Source: an uncultured Caryophanales bacterium (lineage in GTDB: Bacteria; Bacillota_I; Bacilli_A; RF39; UBA660). Taken from it: a stretch of DNA of 41,542 bases. Below are positions 4,577 through 27,509 of the stretch, piece after piece. How positions within the stretch are numbered: the stretch's first letter is position 1; the number at the start of each line of letters is the position of its first letter. The DNA lies in assembly GCA_948442255.1 (NCBI GenBank), contig CAOJRT010000012.1, positions 1 to 41,542 of the forward strand. Reading direction: 5' to 3'. A program made the position numbers and the translations under genes. The notes beneath the pieces were generated by a model, which was not told the DNA's origin, did not search any database, and worked only from the letters and a program-made list of their open reading frames with translations.

Positions 4577-5065
4577 GTGACAAAGAAACAAAAACAGAAA
4601 ATGTTAAGAAATAGTTTGTTTTTTCTATTTTTAGCTTTATTCTCTATTTTATCTATTGTTTATGCAGAAGAAGTATATGTGACTTCAGCTAAAATTAATT
4701 TTTGTGATTATCCTAGTACAAGAAGAACTCTACGTACTATTGGTTATGTTGTATATGGAATTAAACTAGCGGTTCCTATCATTCTTATTGGGGCTGCTAT
4801 GCTTGATTTATTTAAAATTGTTATTTCTGGAAAAGATGATGAAATGAAAAAAGCTATATCTACTATCGTTAAAAGAGGAACAGCAGGATTAATTGTTTTT
4901 CTTATCCCTACATTAGCACAGTTCTTATTTGAAACGTTAATTCCGAATGACCAAACTAATTTTACGGTCTGTACAGGCTGTATTACAGAACCACAAGAGT
5001 GTGATGTTAATATTGAAGAACCATGTACTCTGGTTGATAGTAATGGAAATTGTAAAAAAGATTAA
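4577..5065 (+). CDS. Small multi-spanning membrane protein, VirB2/TrbC-like, cysteine-rich tail
   Basis: Protein of 162 residues starting at GTG with SD AGGTGAGG. An N-terminal hydrophobic segment ends in VYA-EE, like a signal peptide (about 12-31). Two further membrane helices lie at about 58-78 and 99-120, separated by a short charged loop (SGKDDEMKKA), the usual plan of VirB2/TrbC pilin-like or conjugation-associated proteins. The tail (from about 128) holds six cysteines in a short acidic stretch. No other secretion genes are nearby. Next to the bacteriocin operon, so a role there (for example immunity) cannot be excluded. Family call is tentative. Confidence 0.45.
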   Translation: MTKKQKQKMLRNSLFFLFLALFSILSIVYAEEVYVTSAKINFCDYPSTRRTLRTIGYVVYGIKLAVPIILIGAAMLDLFKIVISGKDDEMKKAISTIVKRGTAGLIVFLIPTLAQFLFETLIPNDQTNFTVCTGCITEPQECDVNIEEPCTLVDSNGNCKKD

Positions 5066-5142: not shown

Positions 5143-7185
5143 ATGCAAAAAAGTTTTATTGTTAAACAGCAAGACTTAAGAGATTGTGGCGTTTGTTGCT
5201 TAGCATCTATTATAAAATATTATAATGGAAATATCCCTCTTGAACGTTTAAAATTAGATACGAAAACGGGAAAAAATGGGACGTCAGCCTTAAATCTTAT
5301 TAAGACTGCTAGAAAATATGGTTTTGATGCAACAGGAAAGAAATTAAAACAAATATCGTGTGAAGAAATAACACTGCCAGCTATAGCCCATGTAGTACTC
5401 AAAAACGGATTAAATCATTTCGTAGTGATTTATAAATTCACCAAACAGACTGTTATCTTAATGGATCCTGCTAAAGGATATGTCAAAATGAAAAAAGAAC
5501 AATTTTTGGAAATATGGACGCAAGTCATTATTATTTTAAAACCCATTACTAAAATACCAGTAATGAATTCATCCAATACCCTCAAAAAACTTTTTATCAA
5601 TGTTATCAAAAATGAGAAAAACACATTCTTTAAACTTATTGGCATTAGCCTTTTTATTACATTGCTTTCTATTTCAACAAGTTACTTTTTACAATTTATG
5701 ATGCATTCTTTAGAAAATAGTTCTATTATGATTACATTTGTTATTATTGTTGTTTTTTTCTTTTTAACTATAGTTAAGTTGTATACAAACTATATTAAGA
5801 ATGAATATATTATTTATTTAAATAAAAATATTGATATACAAATTTCTTTAGATTTTTTGCATCATCTTTTTTATCTCCCTTTATATGTCGTCAAAAATAA
5901 AAGTAGTGGAGAAATTATGAAAAGAGTACAGGAATTAACTAGTATAAAGGAGCTATTTACTGAAGTCATTATTTGTCTTATTTTAAACCTTGTCTTACTA
6001 TTGTCTTCAGCTTTTTTCCTTTATCATATACATGCGCAATTATTTTTTATTCTTTGTATAATTGTTATTGTATACTTTATAGTTGGTTTCTTTTGTACCC
6101 CTGTTATTCATAAAAAATTAGACGACATAGTGGATTCTGAGACGGAATATAACTCTATTATGATGGAAAATATAGAGAACATGGAATCTTTGAAGCATTT
6201 GAATTTGACAAAGAAAGCAGAAGAAGTGGTCGAAAAATCATTCGTTTCCTATATCAAAGAAAATTTGTCTTATATGCGTTTTTTCAATCAATATAATTCG
6301 GCTAAATCTTGTATATATGAAATAGGTTTGTTTTTTATTACTGCTTTTGGAATTCTTTTGATAGAGAAAAATCTACTTAGTTTTGTGTCTCTAATGACGT
6401 TTAACACGTTATTAACTTATTTTATAACACCTGTAGAAGAGATATTATCTCTCTTACCTAAATATGAATTAATAAAAGTCTCTTTTTATAAGATAAATGA
6501 ATTTTTGAATATTGAACCAGAACATCTTGGAAAACAAGAAAAATTTTTCCCAGGGACAATTAAATTTCAAAATATTACTTATTCCTATGACAATTATAAG
6601 GATATACTTCTTAATACTAATTTAGAGATAAAGGAAAAAGAGCATGTTATTCTTTCAGGGGATAGCGGTTGTGGAAAAAGTACCATGTGTAAAATGTTGT
6701 GTAGAAATATTGATGATTATTTAGGAAATATAACTATTAACGATATAAATATAAAAGAATATTCGCTTTATACTATAAGAAAAAATATATTATATGTTTC
6801 ACAAAGAGAAAGATTATTTACCGATACAATAAGGAATAATATTACTCTCCATAAAAAAGTTTCTGTAGAGGAGTTAAACCAAATTATTAAAATTACGGAG
6901 GTTGATAAAATTCTTGATAAAAAAACGCTTCGTTTGGAATCGCTTTTGCTTGATAGCGGATATAATCTAAGTGGAGGAGAAAGACAACGAATTGTACTAG
7001 CACGCTCCTTATTAAAAAAACCTAAAATTCTTATTTTAGATGAATCTCTAAGTGAACTTGATGCAGGTAGTGAAAAACATATACTGACTAATATTAAACG
7101 TTATTTAAAGGATACAACGTTAATTTATGTGACACATAATGAAACAAATTATTTGGAAAGAAGAATAGAAATACCTTCTCTATGA
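5143..7185 (+). CDS. Bacteriocin ABC exporter with N-terminal C39 peptidase
   Basis: Protein of 680 residues. Residues 1-130 form a C39 cysteine peptidase that cuts leaders after Gly-Gly: Cys15 in QQDLRDCGVCC, His92 in NHFVV and Asp108 in MDPAKG complete the triad. Residues about 160-440 hold the membrane domain. The ATPase domain has Walker A GDSGCGKST (from 506), signature LSGGERQR (from 609), Walker B ILILDES and the switch THN. It processes and exports double-glycine peptides across the membrane. SD GGGAGG precedes the ATG. It overlaps the next gene by ATGA, and the two substrate peptides lie just downstream at 7598-7907. Confidence 0.95.
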   Translation: MQKSFIVKQQDLRDCGVCCLASIIKYYNGNIPLERLKLDTKTGKNGTSALNLIKTARKYGFDATGKKLKQISCEEITLPAIAHVVLKNGLNHFVVIYKFTKQTVILMDPAKGYVKMKKEQFLEIWTQVIIILKPITKIPVMNSSNTLKKLFINVIKNEKNTFFKLIGISLFITLLSISTSYFLQFMMHSLENSSIMITFVIIVVFFFLTIVKLYTNYIKNEYIIYLNKNIDIQISLDFLHHLFYLPLYVVKNKSSGEIMKRVQELTSIKELFTEVIICLILNLVLLLSSAFFLYHIHAQLFFILCIIVIVYFIVGFFCTPVIHKKLDDIVDSETEYNSIMMENIENMESLKHLNLTKKAEEVVEKSFVSYIKENLSYMRFFNQYNSAKSCIYEIGLFFITAFGILLIEKNLLSFVSLMTFNTLLTYFITPVEEILSLLPKYELIKVSFYKINEFLNIEPEHLGKQEKFFPGTIKFQNITYSYDNYKDILLNTNLEIKEKEHVILSGDSGCGKSTMCKMLCRNIDDYLGNITINDINIKEYSLYTIRKNILYVSQRERLFTDTIRNNITLHKKVSVEELNQIIKITEVDKILDKKTLRLESLLLDSGYNLSGGERQRIVLARSLLKKPKILILDESLSELDAGSEKHILTNIKRYLKDTTLIYVTHNETNYLERRIEIPSL

Positions 7186-22914: not shown

Positions 22915-22944
22915 AAGAATTTGAAAGTTTCAAATTCTTTTTTT
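22915..22944 (+). terminator. Terminator of yqeG-yqeH-mutL
   Basis: AAGAATTTG (22915-22923) pairs with CAAATTCTT (22931-22939), loop of 7, T-run to 22944. Confidence 0.85.
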
Positions 22945-23059
22945 GCGTCTGGTTCCATGATTTTATCAAAACTGAATTGCTTTAGAAGATCAAATATTTT
23001 TTAGATTTTACTTCCTTAATTTTGCTTTTTTGAGGGGTTAACATATATTGTACATTATC

Positions 23060-23109
23060 AAAAAAATAGTTTTTTTTATTGACTTTTTGCTACAGGGGGG
23101 GGGTATAAT
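23060..23109 (+). promoter_or_regulatory. Promoter with a poly-G spacer (putative phase switch)
   Basis: TTGACT (23079-23084) and TATAAT (23104-23109) are separated by 19 nt that include nine consecutive G (23095-23103). A-rich and T-rich runs (23060-23077) just upstream could act as UP elements. In DNA of about 30% GC a G9 run is highly unusual. Loss or gain of one or two G would bring the spacer to 18-17 or move it away, changing expression of the two surface genes downstream. Confidence 0.75.
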
Positions 23110-23144
23110 AAAAATAGAATAAAAATAATATAGGAGTGTAGTAT

Positions 23145-24617
23145 ATGAGAAGTATAAAGAAATCCTCTTCTAAAAAGAGAATCCTTATCTTAAGTCTCCT
23201 AATACTTTTGTCGTGCATAAGTATTGGGTATGCTTATTTAAATCAAAAAGTAAACATTTCTTCTGTAGCTAAAATAGAAAAAAACACATGGGATATTCAT
23301 TTTGAGAATATAGTTGTCGGAGATAATAATGCTGATAATACAGTTCCTTTTATTTCAAACAACAATACAAAAATTAATATTACACTCAATTTAAAAAAAC
23401 CAGGAGATTCTTATGAATTTCTTGTTGATGTCGTAAATAATGGAACTATTGATGCAAAAATAGAAAGTGTGTTTAAAACAACCTTATCAGAGGAACAACT
23501 AAAATATTTAGATTATTCTTTGACCTATATGGATGGAGTCGCTATAAATAAAAATGATTTGTTAAAAGTAGGTGAAAAAGATCAAATTAGATTAAAAATT
23601 AATTTTAAAAACATGACAGACCCTTCTTATATTCCTACAACTGATCAAATCGTAAATATAGAAGGGGAAATATTGTTTGTACAAGATTTAGGAGATGGAG
23701 TACCAAGAAAAAGAAAACTTTATTATGTTATGGAAAGTACTGCTAGAGGGGATGAAACACTTAATTTTTTACGTACTGCTAGTGATACAAATGGAAAAGG
23801 TGTATACCGATTAACGAAGATTGCGACTAGTAGTCCTATCTATTATTATCGTGGAGAAGTTTATGACAATAACGTTCTATTTGGAAACTTCTGTTGGAAG
23901 ATTATTAGAACTACAAATACAGGTGGAATTAAACTGATTTATAATGGAAAACCAAACGATGGCATTTGTAATAATACACATAGTTCCACCGAAATTGCTA
24001 AATCTGCTTTTAATGTAGATGGTGTTAATGATCCAAAGTATGCAGGGTATATGTATGATGATAATACAGTAGATTCGACAATAAAGGGAGTCATTGATAC
24101 ATGGTTTTCTAATAACTTAGTAGATTATCTAAGCTACTTAGAAGACACGCCATTTTATAATGAAAGAGATTATGTTATGCTTTCTTCTACTTATATGCAA
24201 TTTGCTAGCGCAGTTCGTTATTATGAAGGAGCTGCAATAATAAGACTAGGAGCAGCTGAGAAAAGCGACATTTTTACGATAAGTAGTAGTATTGGAAATG
24301 GTGCCTTAACGTATCCCGTAGGTTTAATTACTTCTGATGAAGCTATGATGGCTGGAGCAGAAGGTTGGAACTCTGAGAATAATGAACACGAAAATTTAAA
24401 AGTCTATTTAAATACATATGAATGGTTTTGGACGATGACTCCTTGGATCTGCGAAAACACTTTAGTTATGGATTCTTTTTTAGGAGCAGGAAATCATGGT
24501 GGATCTGCAGCAACTAGTGAATTTGGTGTACGTCCTGTTGTAAGCCTTCGACCTGGTATTTTATATAGTAGCGGAAATGGAACAAATAATTCTCCTTATA
24601 TTATAACAAGTAATTAG
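23145..24617 (+). CDS. Secreted/surface protein with TasA-like N-terminus
   Basis: Protein of 490 residues. The signal (about 11-32) and IGYAYLNQKVNISSVAKIEK resemble SipW-type exported proteins (TasA/camelysin-like). Residues about 40-190 form a beta-sandwich of this kind (LNLKKPGDSYEFLVDVVNNG). The C-terminal part (about 200-490) has FCWKIIRTTNTGGIKLIYNG, a WF-rich helix, and near the end FGVRPVVSLRPG, seen in large exported protein families of gut Firmicutes. No LPxTG or other anchor. SD AGGAGTG. First gene after the poly-G promoter; no terminator before the next gene 42 bases on. Confidence 0.7.
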   Translation: MRSIKKSSSKKRILILSLLILLSCISIGYAYLNQKVNISSVAKIEKNTWDIHFENIVVGDNNADNTVPFISNNNTKINITLNLKKPGDSYEFLVDVVNNGTIDAKIESVFKTTLSEEQLKYLDYSLTYMDGVAINKNDLLKVGEKDQIRLKINFKNMTDPSYIPTTDQIVNIEGEILFVQDLGDGVPRKRKLYYVMESTARGDETLNFLRTASDTNGKGVYRLTKIATSSPIYYYRGEVYDNNVLFGNFCWKIIRTTNTGGIKLIYNGKPNDGICNNTHSSTEIAKSAFNVDGVNDPKYAGYMYDDNTVDSTIKGVIDTWFSNNLVDYLSYLEDTPFYNERDYVMLSSTYMQFASAVRYYEGAAIIRLGAAEKSDIFTISSSIGNGALTYPVGLITSDEAMMAGAEGWNSENNEHENLKVYLNTYEWFWTMTPWICENTLVMDSFLGAGNHGGSAATSEFGVRPVVSLRPGILYSSGNGTNNSPYIITSN

Positions 24618-24659: not shown

Positions 24660-27509
24660 ATGAAAAACATGAAAAAAAGACATTTATTGATTCTCTGTAT
24701 TTTACTCTTACTTTTTCTTTCGGTAGGGTATAGTTTTTTAAGTGCTTCTTTACAAGTTTCAGGAGGTTTAACTTTATCTAGTGCAAAATGGGAAGTCACA
24801 TTTGATCCAAGTGGTGGAGTAGTAAATCCTACTAGTAAAGAAGTTTGGATGGGAAAACCTTATGGTGATTTACCTAGTGCTAGTTTGTCAGGTTATTATT
24901 TTGAAGGATGGTATACTGATATTGTTGGAGGAGACAAAATAGAAAAAGATACAACCTATAAAACGGCTGATAATCAAACTCTTTTTGCACATTGGTCTAT
25001 AAAGAAGATGATGCTTGATTTTGATGCGAATGGAGGAGAAATAGATGCTTCTCCTTTAGAAGTCACTTATGGACTTGTATATCCTGTTTTACCAGTACCT
25101 ACAAGATATGGTTATGAATTTAATGGGTGGTTTACAACTCCTGAAGGTGGAAGTCCTATTAGTCATTCTGTTTTAGTTTCTAAGATAACAAATCATACAG
25201 CATATGCCCATTGGACAGGAAAACGATATAAGATTACTTTTGATGCAAATGGTGGAAGTGTTGGAACGACTTCCAAAGATGTATATTATGGTTCTCCTTA
25301 TGGAGATTTACCTACTCCAGAGAGAGAAGGTTATGATTTCGCAGGATGGTATACTTCCGTATCAGGAGGAGTCAATAAGACAGCGAATACAACAGTTTCT
25401 ATAACAGACAATGAAACGTTATATGCAAAATGGGTTGCAAAGAATTATCCAATTGTGTATAAACAAGGGATTGCAACAGGAGGAACTTTACCAAATAATC
25501 AAAATGTACCTTATAATACAGTAGTTACAATAGGAACGAATAACATGAGTAAAGCGAATACAAACTTAGGAACAGTTACATTTAACTATAATGGAAATGG
25601 TCAAGGGAATACAACAAGTACAGCATATATTTCTTATGCTCCTGATGGATGGTCTTATTCTTCTGAAGGAGGAAGAGATTATCCAAATAATGCAACATTT
25701 ACGTATTCGATAACAGAAGGAATCGAGTTATACCCTTACTTTTTTGCAACACAACATAGTGCTAGTTTTCCATCTCCAACTAGAACTGGTTATAGCTTTG
25801 TAGGGTGGTTTACAGAAGCAAGTGGTGGAACACAAGTGACAGAATATATGGGGAATGCAAATATAACTTTATATGCGCATTGGAGTCCGAATCAATATAC
25901 CCTTCGCTATAATCGAGGAGCAGCGACAGGCGGAACCCTACCAGGGGAACAAAGAGTCACATTTGATACAAACGTTACAATAGGAACGAATAATATGAGT
26001 AAGGCGAATACCAATTTAGGAACGGTTACATTTAACTATAATGGAAATGGCCAAGGGAATACAACAAGTACAGCATATACAACATATGTACCAAATGGAT
26101 GGACAGCTGGAACAATCCATTATAGTAATGGACAAAATATTCCTTATACCACAGCATCTGATTTTGTACTAACAGCTGATTTTACAGCAACGAATCATAG
26201 TGCAGTATTTCCAAATTCAACAAGGACTGGATATACTTTTATGGGATGGTACACTGCCGCAAATGGAGGAAGTCAAATTGATAGTTATACAGGAAATGCA
26301 GACATTACTGTATATGCGCATTGGATGCCAAATCGATATACACTTTACTATAAAAAAGGAACATCAACTGGATTTAATATTCCAGGAAACCGAAGAGTTG
26401 ACTATGATTCTACTATTACGTTAGCAACGAATAATATGAGTAAAGAAGCTTCTTCGTTGAGTCAAATTACCTTTAACTATAACGGAAATGGGCAGACAGA
26501 TTCAATAATCTATAATTATACTTTTTATAAGCCGAATGGTTGGTCGAATACTAACGACGGAGCTAAAACATATACGGACGGACAAACGATTACTTATACA
26601 TGGCCTAATGATATAAGTTTGTATCCTCATTTTGATACGCAGATAGGCTGTCCACCTTTTCCAACACCAACAAGAGAAAGATATGAATTTGTAGGATGGT
26701 ATACCGAAGCAAGCGGAGGAACTAAAATAACTAGCTATACAGGGAATTCAGATATAACTTTATATGCACATTGGCAAGAAGTTACTGCGCCTGCCCTTAC
26801 TGGAGGAACTGCGATGTGGATACGTGAGGCAAGAACAGTAAGTATCGCTGCGGCAGGATCTGCTTATACAGGAGTTTCCCGCTATGAGTACTATTTTTAT
26901 GATCGTATGAAAGCAGGGCAAAGTGCACCGAACTATGATTCTATCGCTACTGGTACTGGAACAGCTGTTACTTTAGGTGGTACAGGATGGTATGAAGTTT
27001 ATTTTAGAACTGTATCTAAAGGAGGAGTTAAAAGTGCATGGAGTTTTCCACAAACAGTTTTGATAGATACATCTTGGACAATTGATATCAATCATGAGAC
27101 AACTGGAGGAGGAACTTGTTGGAACGGAATGTATGATGGAAATTATACTTCGTTAAAAATACATTGTTCAAGGACTACAACCTTTAATATACATACTGCA
27201 TCTATTACTGGGATTAAAGCTATGCGCTGGCAAATTTGTGTGATTGATGAGGGTTATTCAAATAGTTCGGCAGGGAATCCTACTGGCATTCCATGTCTTG
27301 CTCCGGTTTATGCAGGAGATATTAAATGGGGAGGAGAAGGAATAAGAGAGTTATATTCGGGACCTATTTCTATAGGAGATTGCTCTCATGTTCGCCTTTT
27401 CTTTGCTATACATTCTAATGCAGGTGCTTATTTACAGGGAGATATTGAACAGGATGGTCTTTCATGGCAATTTCTAGATATATTTACTGGAGGAAGTTGT
27501 TCTACTTAA
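24660..27509 (+). CDS. Repeat-rich surface protein (InlB B-type repeats)
   Basis: Protein of 949 residues. Signal or anchor (about 7-27) again followed by a TasA-like LSVGYSFLSASLQVSGG. Then three short InlB B-/Flg_new-type repeats (about 44-258; each FDxxGG ... LPxPxRxGYxFxGWYT ... TLYAHW), three longer modules of 150 residues (262-411, 412-561, 562-705) each ending with the same motif, an Ig-like part (about 706-805), and a cysteine-containing unique end. Such repeats are found in adhesins and internalins. No LPxTG. Likely co-transcribed with the preceding gene. Confidence 0.8.
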   Translation: MKNMKKRHLLILCILLLLFLSVGYSFLSASLQVSGGLTLSSAKWEVTFDPSGGVVNPTSKEVWMGKPYGDLPSASLSGYYFEGWYTDIVGGDKIEKDTTYKTADNQTLFAHWSIKKMMLDFDANGGEIDASPLEVTYGLVYPVLPVPTRYGYEFNGWFTTPEGGSPISHSVLVSKITNHTAYAHWTGKRYKITFDANGGSVGTTSKDVYYGSPYGDLPTPEREGYDFAGWYTSVSGGVNKTANTTVSITDNETLYAKWVAKNYPIVYKQGIATGGTLPNNQNVPYNTVVTIGTNNMSKANTNLGTVTFNYNGNGQGNTTSTAYISYAPDGWSYSSEGGRDYPNNATFTYSITEGIELYPYFFATQHSASFPSPTRTGYSFVGWFTEASGGTQVTEYMGNANITLYAHWSPNQYTLRYNRGAATGGTLPGEQRVTFDTNVTIGTNNMSKANTNLGTVTFNYNGNGQGNTTSTAYTTYVPNGWTAGTIHYSNGQNIPYTTASDFVLTADFTATNHSAVFPNSTRTGYTFMGWYTAANGGSQIDSYTGNADITVYAHWMPNRYTLYYKKGTSTGFNIPGNRRVDYDSTITLATNNMSKEASSLSQITFNYNGNGQTDSIIYNYTFYKPNGWSNTNDGAKTYTDGQTITYTWPNDISLYPHFDTQIGCPPFPTPTRERYEFVGWYTEASGGTKITSYTGNSDITLYAHWQEVTAPALTGGTAMWIREARTVSIAAAGSAYTGVSRYEYYFYDRMKAGQSAPNYDSIATGTGTAVTLGGTGWYEVYFRTVSKGGVKSAWSFPQTVLIDTSWTIDINHETTGGGTCWNGMYDGNYTSLKIHCSRTTTFNIHTASITGIKAMRWQICVIDEGYSNSSAGNPTGIPCLAPVYAGDIKWGGEGIRELYSGPISIGDCSHVRLFFAIHSNAGAYLQGDIEQDGLSWQFLDIFTGGSCST
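25443..26774 (+). repeat. Three in-frame repeats of about 450 bp
   Basis: Units at 25443-25892, 25893-26342 and 26343-26774. The first two keep an exact offset of 450 bases, and 25524-25629 matches 25974-26079 with only a few, mostly silent, changes. The third is more diverged. Loss or gain of one unit would keep the frame. Confidence 0.85.

Follow-up and report, generated by a model that had tools for sequence, protein, structure and literature searches.

Architecture of the G-tract promoter and its genes

We analyzed a contig of 41,542 nucleotides (nt) from an uncultured Caryophanales bacterium of the RF39 lineage (CAOJRT010000012.1; 41.5 kb, hereafter the window), on which a promoter with nine consecutive G between its -35 and -10 elements precedes two open reading frames, ORF1 and ORF2, of 490 and 949 amino acids (aa). 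An earlier note on this DNA had proposed that the G run makes the two genes phase-variable. The locus comprises the following features:

22915..22939, + strand: perfect inverted repeat of 12 base pairs, then T7; an intrinsic-terminator-like site closing mutL
23079..23084, + strand: -35 element TTGACT, read from the sequence
23085..23094, + strand: non-G part of the spacer, TTTTGCTACA, from the sequence and an alignment of paralogous promoters
23095..23103, + strand: G9 tract, proposed to switch by slipped-strand mispairing; the whole spacer (23085-23103) measures 19 nt
23104..23109, + strand: -10 element TATAAT, read from the sequence
23132..23136, + strand: ribosome-binding site AGGAG; start codon ATG at 23145
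23145..24617, + strand: ORF1, 490 aa; hydrophobic N-terminal helix (residues 9-36), beta-sandwich (~45-185) and putative C-terminal C-type-lectin-like domain (~189-490)
24660..27509, + strand: ORF2, 949 aa; N-terminal hydrophobic segment and six InlB B-repeat (Flg_new / List_Bact_rpt) stretches

The anatomy given in the earlier note, i.e. TTGACT and TATAAT around a 19-nt spacer holding nine G, proved exact, with coordinates 23079-23109. Its setting of ~30% guanine and cytosine (GC) agrees with a local GC content of ~29% around the promoter, and the two exported proteins it had placed behind the promoter correspond to ORF1 and ORF2, both of which carry a hydrophobic N-terminus. In seven paralogous promoters aligned with that of the window, the -35 element reads TTGACA instead of TTGACT. 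The G9 tract is the sole run of seven or more G in the window, where 0.30 G7 matches were expected and three overlapping ones observed, the latter number being reached by 1 of 100 shuffles. A chance origin of the promoter is excluded, mainly through its recurrence (see below). A promoter scanner had no entry for it, because this scanner accepts only spacers of 16-18 nt.

The hairpin behind mutL has a minimum free energy of -8.7 kcal/mol (z -3.5). As this terminator-like structure ends mutL, ORF1 and ORF2 probably depend on the G-tract promoter. The two genes are separated by 42 nt, a gap in which we looked for a terminator and found none; they are therefore probably co-transcribed, as judged from this arrangement.

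The product of ORF1 had no match in Pfam or NCBIfam, and a divergent paralogue matches DUF6273 below the cut-off. We built an AlphaFold2 model from 23 sequences of the same genome and the genus, which reached a mean predicted local distance difference test score (pLDDT) of 83.6. A Foldseek search with ORF1 gave no match at E <= 0.001. Residues 189-490 of the model resemble the N-terminal domain of the immunoglobulin A (IgA) peptidase from Thomasclavelia ramosa (Z 13.3, root mean square deviation 3.6, 197 residues), which its authors describe as C-type-lectin-like and dispensable for peptidase activity (PMC12237041). For residues 45-185, TasA was the top Foldseek match (E 4.1e-3), but at Z 5.7 it ranks level with numerous sandwiches that are unrelated. 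Similarity of fold does not demonstrate function; a binding surface in ORF1 is a reasonable guess. The paralogues of ORF1 diverge most near the C-terminus, ahead of a conserved GVRPV-SL motif.

Sister promoters in the same genome

The genome that holds the window (G000 among our genome labels) comprises 1.64 Mb in 80 contigs and contains 46 matches to ORF1, of which 11 or more span the full length, with ~50% identity. Contigs C3, C5, C17, C20, C22, C44, C47, C51, C66 and C74 have ends inside ORF1 paralogues. Since many contigs begin or end in this way, the true number of paralogues and of tract promoters probably exceeds our count. A second ORF1-ORF2 arrangement is found at G000:C3:1-1500, where an ORF1 paralogue ends and a nearly identical beginning of ORF2 comes next.

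Nine promoters of this genome show the G-tract design or decayed forms of it, with tracts from G7 to G11, some of them interrupted, and most precede ORF1 paralogues. There are seven distinct tracts of at least eight G, five of which have a TTGAC -35 element at the right distance, i.e. those of C2 (G11), the window (G9), C21 (G10), C26 (at least G9, at the contig end) and C34 (G8). When the pattern was widened, C19 (G7) and the interrupted tracts of C33 (GAG7) and C34 (GGGAG6) were also recovered. The tract promoters share TTGACATTTTACTAC-like flanks, most have the same 5' untranslated region, and the readable genes behind them mostly encode the ORF1-type leader MRSIKR..SKKRMLILSLLILL..SIGYAYL. 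Genes behind pure tracts of at least eight G are intact (C12, C2, C34; C58 begins in a tract), while those behind G7 (C19) and GAG7 (C33) are broken, in what is a small sample.

The other two tracts of eight or more G lie inside reading frames. At G000:C13:38141-38149, the frame upstream of an in-gene G9 stops soon beyond it, and a long frame runs on in a different register, as in a translationally phase-variable gene.

The earlier note had assumed an optimal spacer of 17 nt, for which the genome itself provides support. Among 34 ordinary consensus TTGACA..TATAAT pairs without a G run, the spacer is 17 nt in 14 and 18 nt in 6, and tract-less promoters of ORF1 paralogues have spacers of 17-18 nt in most readable cases (C36, C6, C40, C9, C21a, C47). 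Promoters with an uninterrupted tract have spacers of 16, 19, 19, 19 and 20 nt; against a mode of 17, all assembled states are thus off the optimum. Across 196 tract-promoter sites, 40 spacers measure 16 nt, 14 measure 17, 46 measure 18, 62 measure 19 and 19 measure 20, with a dip at 17; for 120 sites in named genomes, the numbers from 16 to 20 nt are 20, 11, 33, 39 and 13. Compared with the peak at 17 of the ordinary promoters, the dip yields a Fisher p of ~4e-6, although sites of the same genome are not independent. Such a dip would follow if most loci were low or off in most cells; alternatively, the optimum could be shifted in G-rich spacers.

Recurrence of the design across the family and beyond

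The pattern TTGAC-N9..15-G7-TATAAT occurs at ~129 sites in 34 of 386 family genomes; read backwards it gave no match, and its C-tract version none in the 386 genomes. Without demanding a -35 element, we found 128 sites of G8 followed by TATAAT in 15 of 145 family genomes, again with none backwards. Reading 28 of these revealed at least five of the six letters of TTGACA in 23 and TTGCAA at 18-19 nt in the other five. Other genera place the tract further from the -10 element, often adjoining the -35 element (TTGACT-G8-TAGTATTA-TATAAT). This second design accounts for 134 sites in 27 of 145 genomes, with five scattered backward matches; we read 24 of them, found the -35 element in 23 and measured total spacers of 16-21 nt. 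One design or the other is present in 35 of 145 genomes, a few of which, having a single match, may be due to chance. Site numbers reach 38 in G093, with 34 in G146 and 28 in G073. In G146 and G073, with 34 and 28 G8-TATAAT sites, TTGCAA or TTGCCA replaces TTGACA as -35 element in the tract promoters read.

Taken together, the tract lies next to the -10 or the -35 element depending on the genus, and the total spacing stays at 16-21 nt at nearly all sites read. A tract that slides while the total spacing stays within this range is more easily explained by a mechanism based on spacing than by a contact at a specific site.

Named public genomes contain at least 117 stretches with the design. Those listed come from uncultured Bacilli and Clostridia, Borkfalkia, Anaeroplasmataceae, Saccharibacteria, Spirochaetia and single cultured species. 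We saw no indication of a phage origin: a search of the viral collection for the 5' region of the same species gave no match, and the general pattern occurs on one viral contig only.

This distribution bears on two rival explanations. The G run might be a sequencing or assembly artefact, miscalled or inserted, as homopolymers are error-prone and each metagenome assembly yields one consensus. We regard this as extremely improbable, because independent public assemblies from many taxa show the design, on the coding strand and in register with the -35 and -10 elements, and because the backward and C-tract controls of the design abutting the -10 element are zero. Alternatively, the tract might be passive and spread with duplicated paralogous genes without regulatory meaning. 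The promoters of the paralogues in the window's genome are indeed clearly related (TTGACATTTTACTAC-Gn), with repeated 5' regions. However, other genera have the same design at unrelated promoters and before unrelated gene families, and the paralogues that lack a tract have kept ordinary promoters whose spacers mostly measure 17-18 nt, which leaves a passive tract very unlikely.

Genes behind the tract promoters

The first ORF behind a tract promoter is exported-like in 111 of 139 cases versus 110 of 411 in the background (Fisher p 1.6e-28); the length limits used to choose target and background ORFs were not quite the same. Tract promoters of other genomes precede paralogous families of their own. 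Proteins behind them in G132 and G146 carry ORF1-like C-terminal motifs. At G309:C6:7000-26000, tandem surface genes each have their own TTGACAAATYGAATAC-G8/9-TATAAT promoter, and their products have a common PKTNDN..KRKENN anchor-like C-terminal tail. Export and surface location of the targets are predicted from their N-termini and from the InlB repeats of ORF2. The surface genes named as targets in the earlier note thereby find their place in a genome-wide family of such promoters, mostly standing before exported-like proteins.

Tract length and the proposed switch

Tract length varies among sister promoters. When promoters of one genome were grouped by letter-identical flanks from the -35 element to the tract, 11 of 17 groups had more than one tract length and 33 of 90 pairs differed. 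Across relatives, tracts range from 7 to 15 G, whereas a fixed G9 in all of them had been named at the outset as an observation that would refute the proposal.

The recurring design, with its strand preference, constrained spacing, enrichment of exported proteins and unequal sister tracts, points strongly to a switch that would turn on and off at random with the number of G's, as far as sequences can tell. Slipped-strand, spacer-length phase variation of multi-locus lectin-like surface proteins is in our judgment the best reading and a probable one. It preserves the phase-variable promoter of the earlier note with its anatomy, surface targets and 17-nt optimum, and departs from it in the choice of opc as model example (see below). 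In this mechanism, the G tract in the spacer of a sigma-A-type promoter would be hypermutable. As the DNA is replicated, slipped-strand mispairing would add or remove G's, and each change would shift the distance from -35 to -10 and hence promoter strength. The present G9 gives a spacer of 19 nt, i.e. 2 nt above the optimum, so that expression of ORF1 and ORF2 would probably be low. A dispersed set of such promoters, mostly before paralogous lectin-like exported proteins, could provide clonal cells with many different surface combinations. We infer slippage in living populations, its effect on transcription and the surface role of the proteins from these patterns. A broader version, which we favor only slightly, is a family-wide switchboard of up to ~38 promoters per genome with genus-specific spacer designs, through which paralogous lectin-like or cell-wall-anchored surface proteins would flip independently, most loci being off the 17-nt optimum.

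Several points weigh against a switch. Tract length is uniform in G132, with G9 at six identical-flank promoters, and in G048, where each of the four sites read has G8. A metagenome assembly gives homopolymer lengths as a consensus, which may contain errors, length change within a strain is deduced from sister-promoter differences, which are only a proxy, and the transcription start at the G9 promoter is a predicted one. In favor of a switch, contig C26 of the window's genome ends in G9 and contig C58 starts with G+TACAAT, i.e. the assembly breaks inside the tract. Such breaks are expected if reads disagree in length, but they could stem from the repeated paralogues instead.

The uniformity in G132 and G048 would also suit a G tract that sets promoter strength as a stable element, structural or regulatory, such as stiff DNA or a binding site, without being a mutable switch. 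Likewise, the design abutting the -10 element uses coding-strand G exclusively and never C, which could reflect a specific contact. We consider a stable element unlikely, as the tract shifts its position between genera with the total spacing kept, sister promoters differ in tract length, and a long pure homopolymer would be a risky means of keeping a fixed site.

Relation to known phase-variable promoters

Switching by slippage is best known from pathogens, among them Neisseria, Campylobacter and Treponema. The principle of poly-G spacer switching is already established. According to the summary in PMC7864442, porA of N. meningitidis has poly-G between -35 and -10, and its transcription drops away from a 17-nt optimum; tp0126 of T. 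pallidum has poly-G in a spacer that is optimal at 17 nt, and 7-11 G were measured in vivo at tprL (PMC7864442). The window promoter agrees with the porA and tp0126 type in that its homopolymer lies between -35 and -10 and sets the spacer around the 17-nt optimum, where small indels would cross it (spacers mostly 16-21). It shares the poly-G spacer with porA, a single locus of a proteobacterial pathogen, whereas here a multi-locus set stands before paralogous genes in uncultured Bacilli. The promoters of tp0126 and tprE/G/J/L likewise have poly-G before surface-protein genes, but lineage and proteins are unrelated, and in the present promoters it is the spacing that would change. The opc gene of N. 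meningitidis, cited in the earlier note as precedent for a spacer tract, fits less well than porA and tp0126. A promoter homopolymer governs a surface protein there too, but its poly-C overlaps the -35 element (PMC7864442) and forms no strict spacer switch; the tract of the window overlaps no -35 element, lying 10 nt downstream of TTGACT and adjoining TATAAT. The pilus of Bifidobacterium breve offers a further parallel, as a gut bacterium controls surface structures by G-tract slippage. The switch studied there is a translational frameshift within a gene and not promoter spacing; promoter-spacer tracts were mentioned and left unstudied by the authors (PMC9187656).

Several aspects seem new: how many loci a single genome has, a design at the promoter level that an uncultured family shares, a tract that slides while the total spacing is conserved, and the family of lectin-like paralogues. 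The word Firmicutes is absent from a 2025 review on phase variation (PMC11868660), and we found no paper pairing RF39 with phase variation in the open-access literature, an absence that is no proof of novelty. If the interpretation as a switch is true, a large uncultured gut-type group has a surface-diversifying system that matches those of classic pathogens in size and is built in promoters, not in reading frames. If the promoters switch, gene presence alone cannot tell whether these surface proteins are expressed.

Upstream repeat and neighboring genes

One further feature lies upstream of the promoter:

23040..23058, + strand: 19-mer AACATATATTGTACATTAT, resembling an insertion-sequence end

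The 19-mer has seven exact copies genome-wide and stands exactly 20 nt upstream of the -35 element in four tract promoters. Its comparison also brought up a further promoter of the set, on C32 (GGGAGGGGAG). Elsewhere, the 19-mer AACATRTATTGTACATTAT flanks a frame resembling an IS3-type transposase or interrupts a paralogue, and it is probably the end of an insertion sequence, judging from these contexts.

The gene order at the locus is mutL, ORF1, ORF2, miaA, and miaA directly follows mutL in the relative G011. A comparison of orthologous sites gave no G run of six or more behind mutL in those genus genomes where the stretch was readable. Further upstream, window positions 5143-7185 encode an ATP-binding cassette (ABC) transporter with a C39-peptidase-like N-terminus of the bacteriocin-export type, which adjoins a small exported protein (4577-5065).
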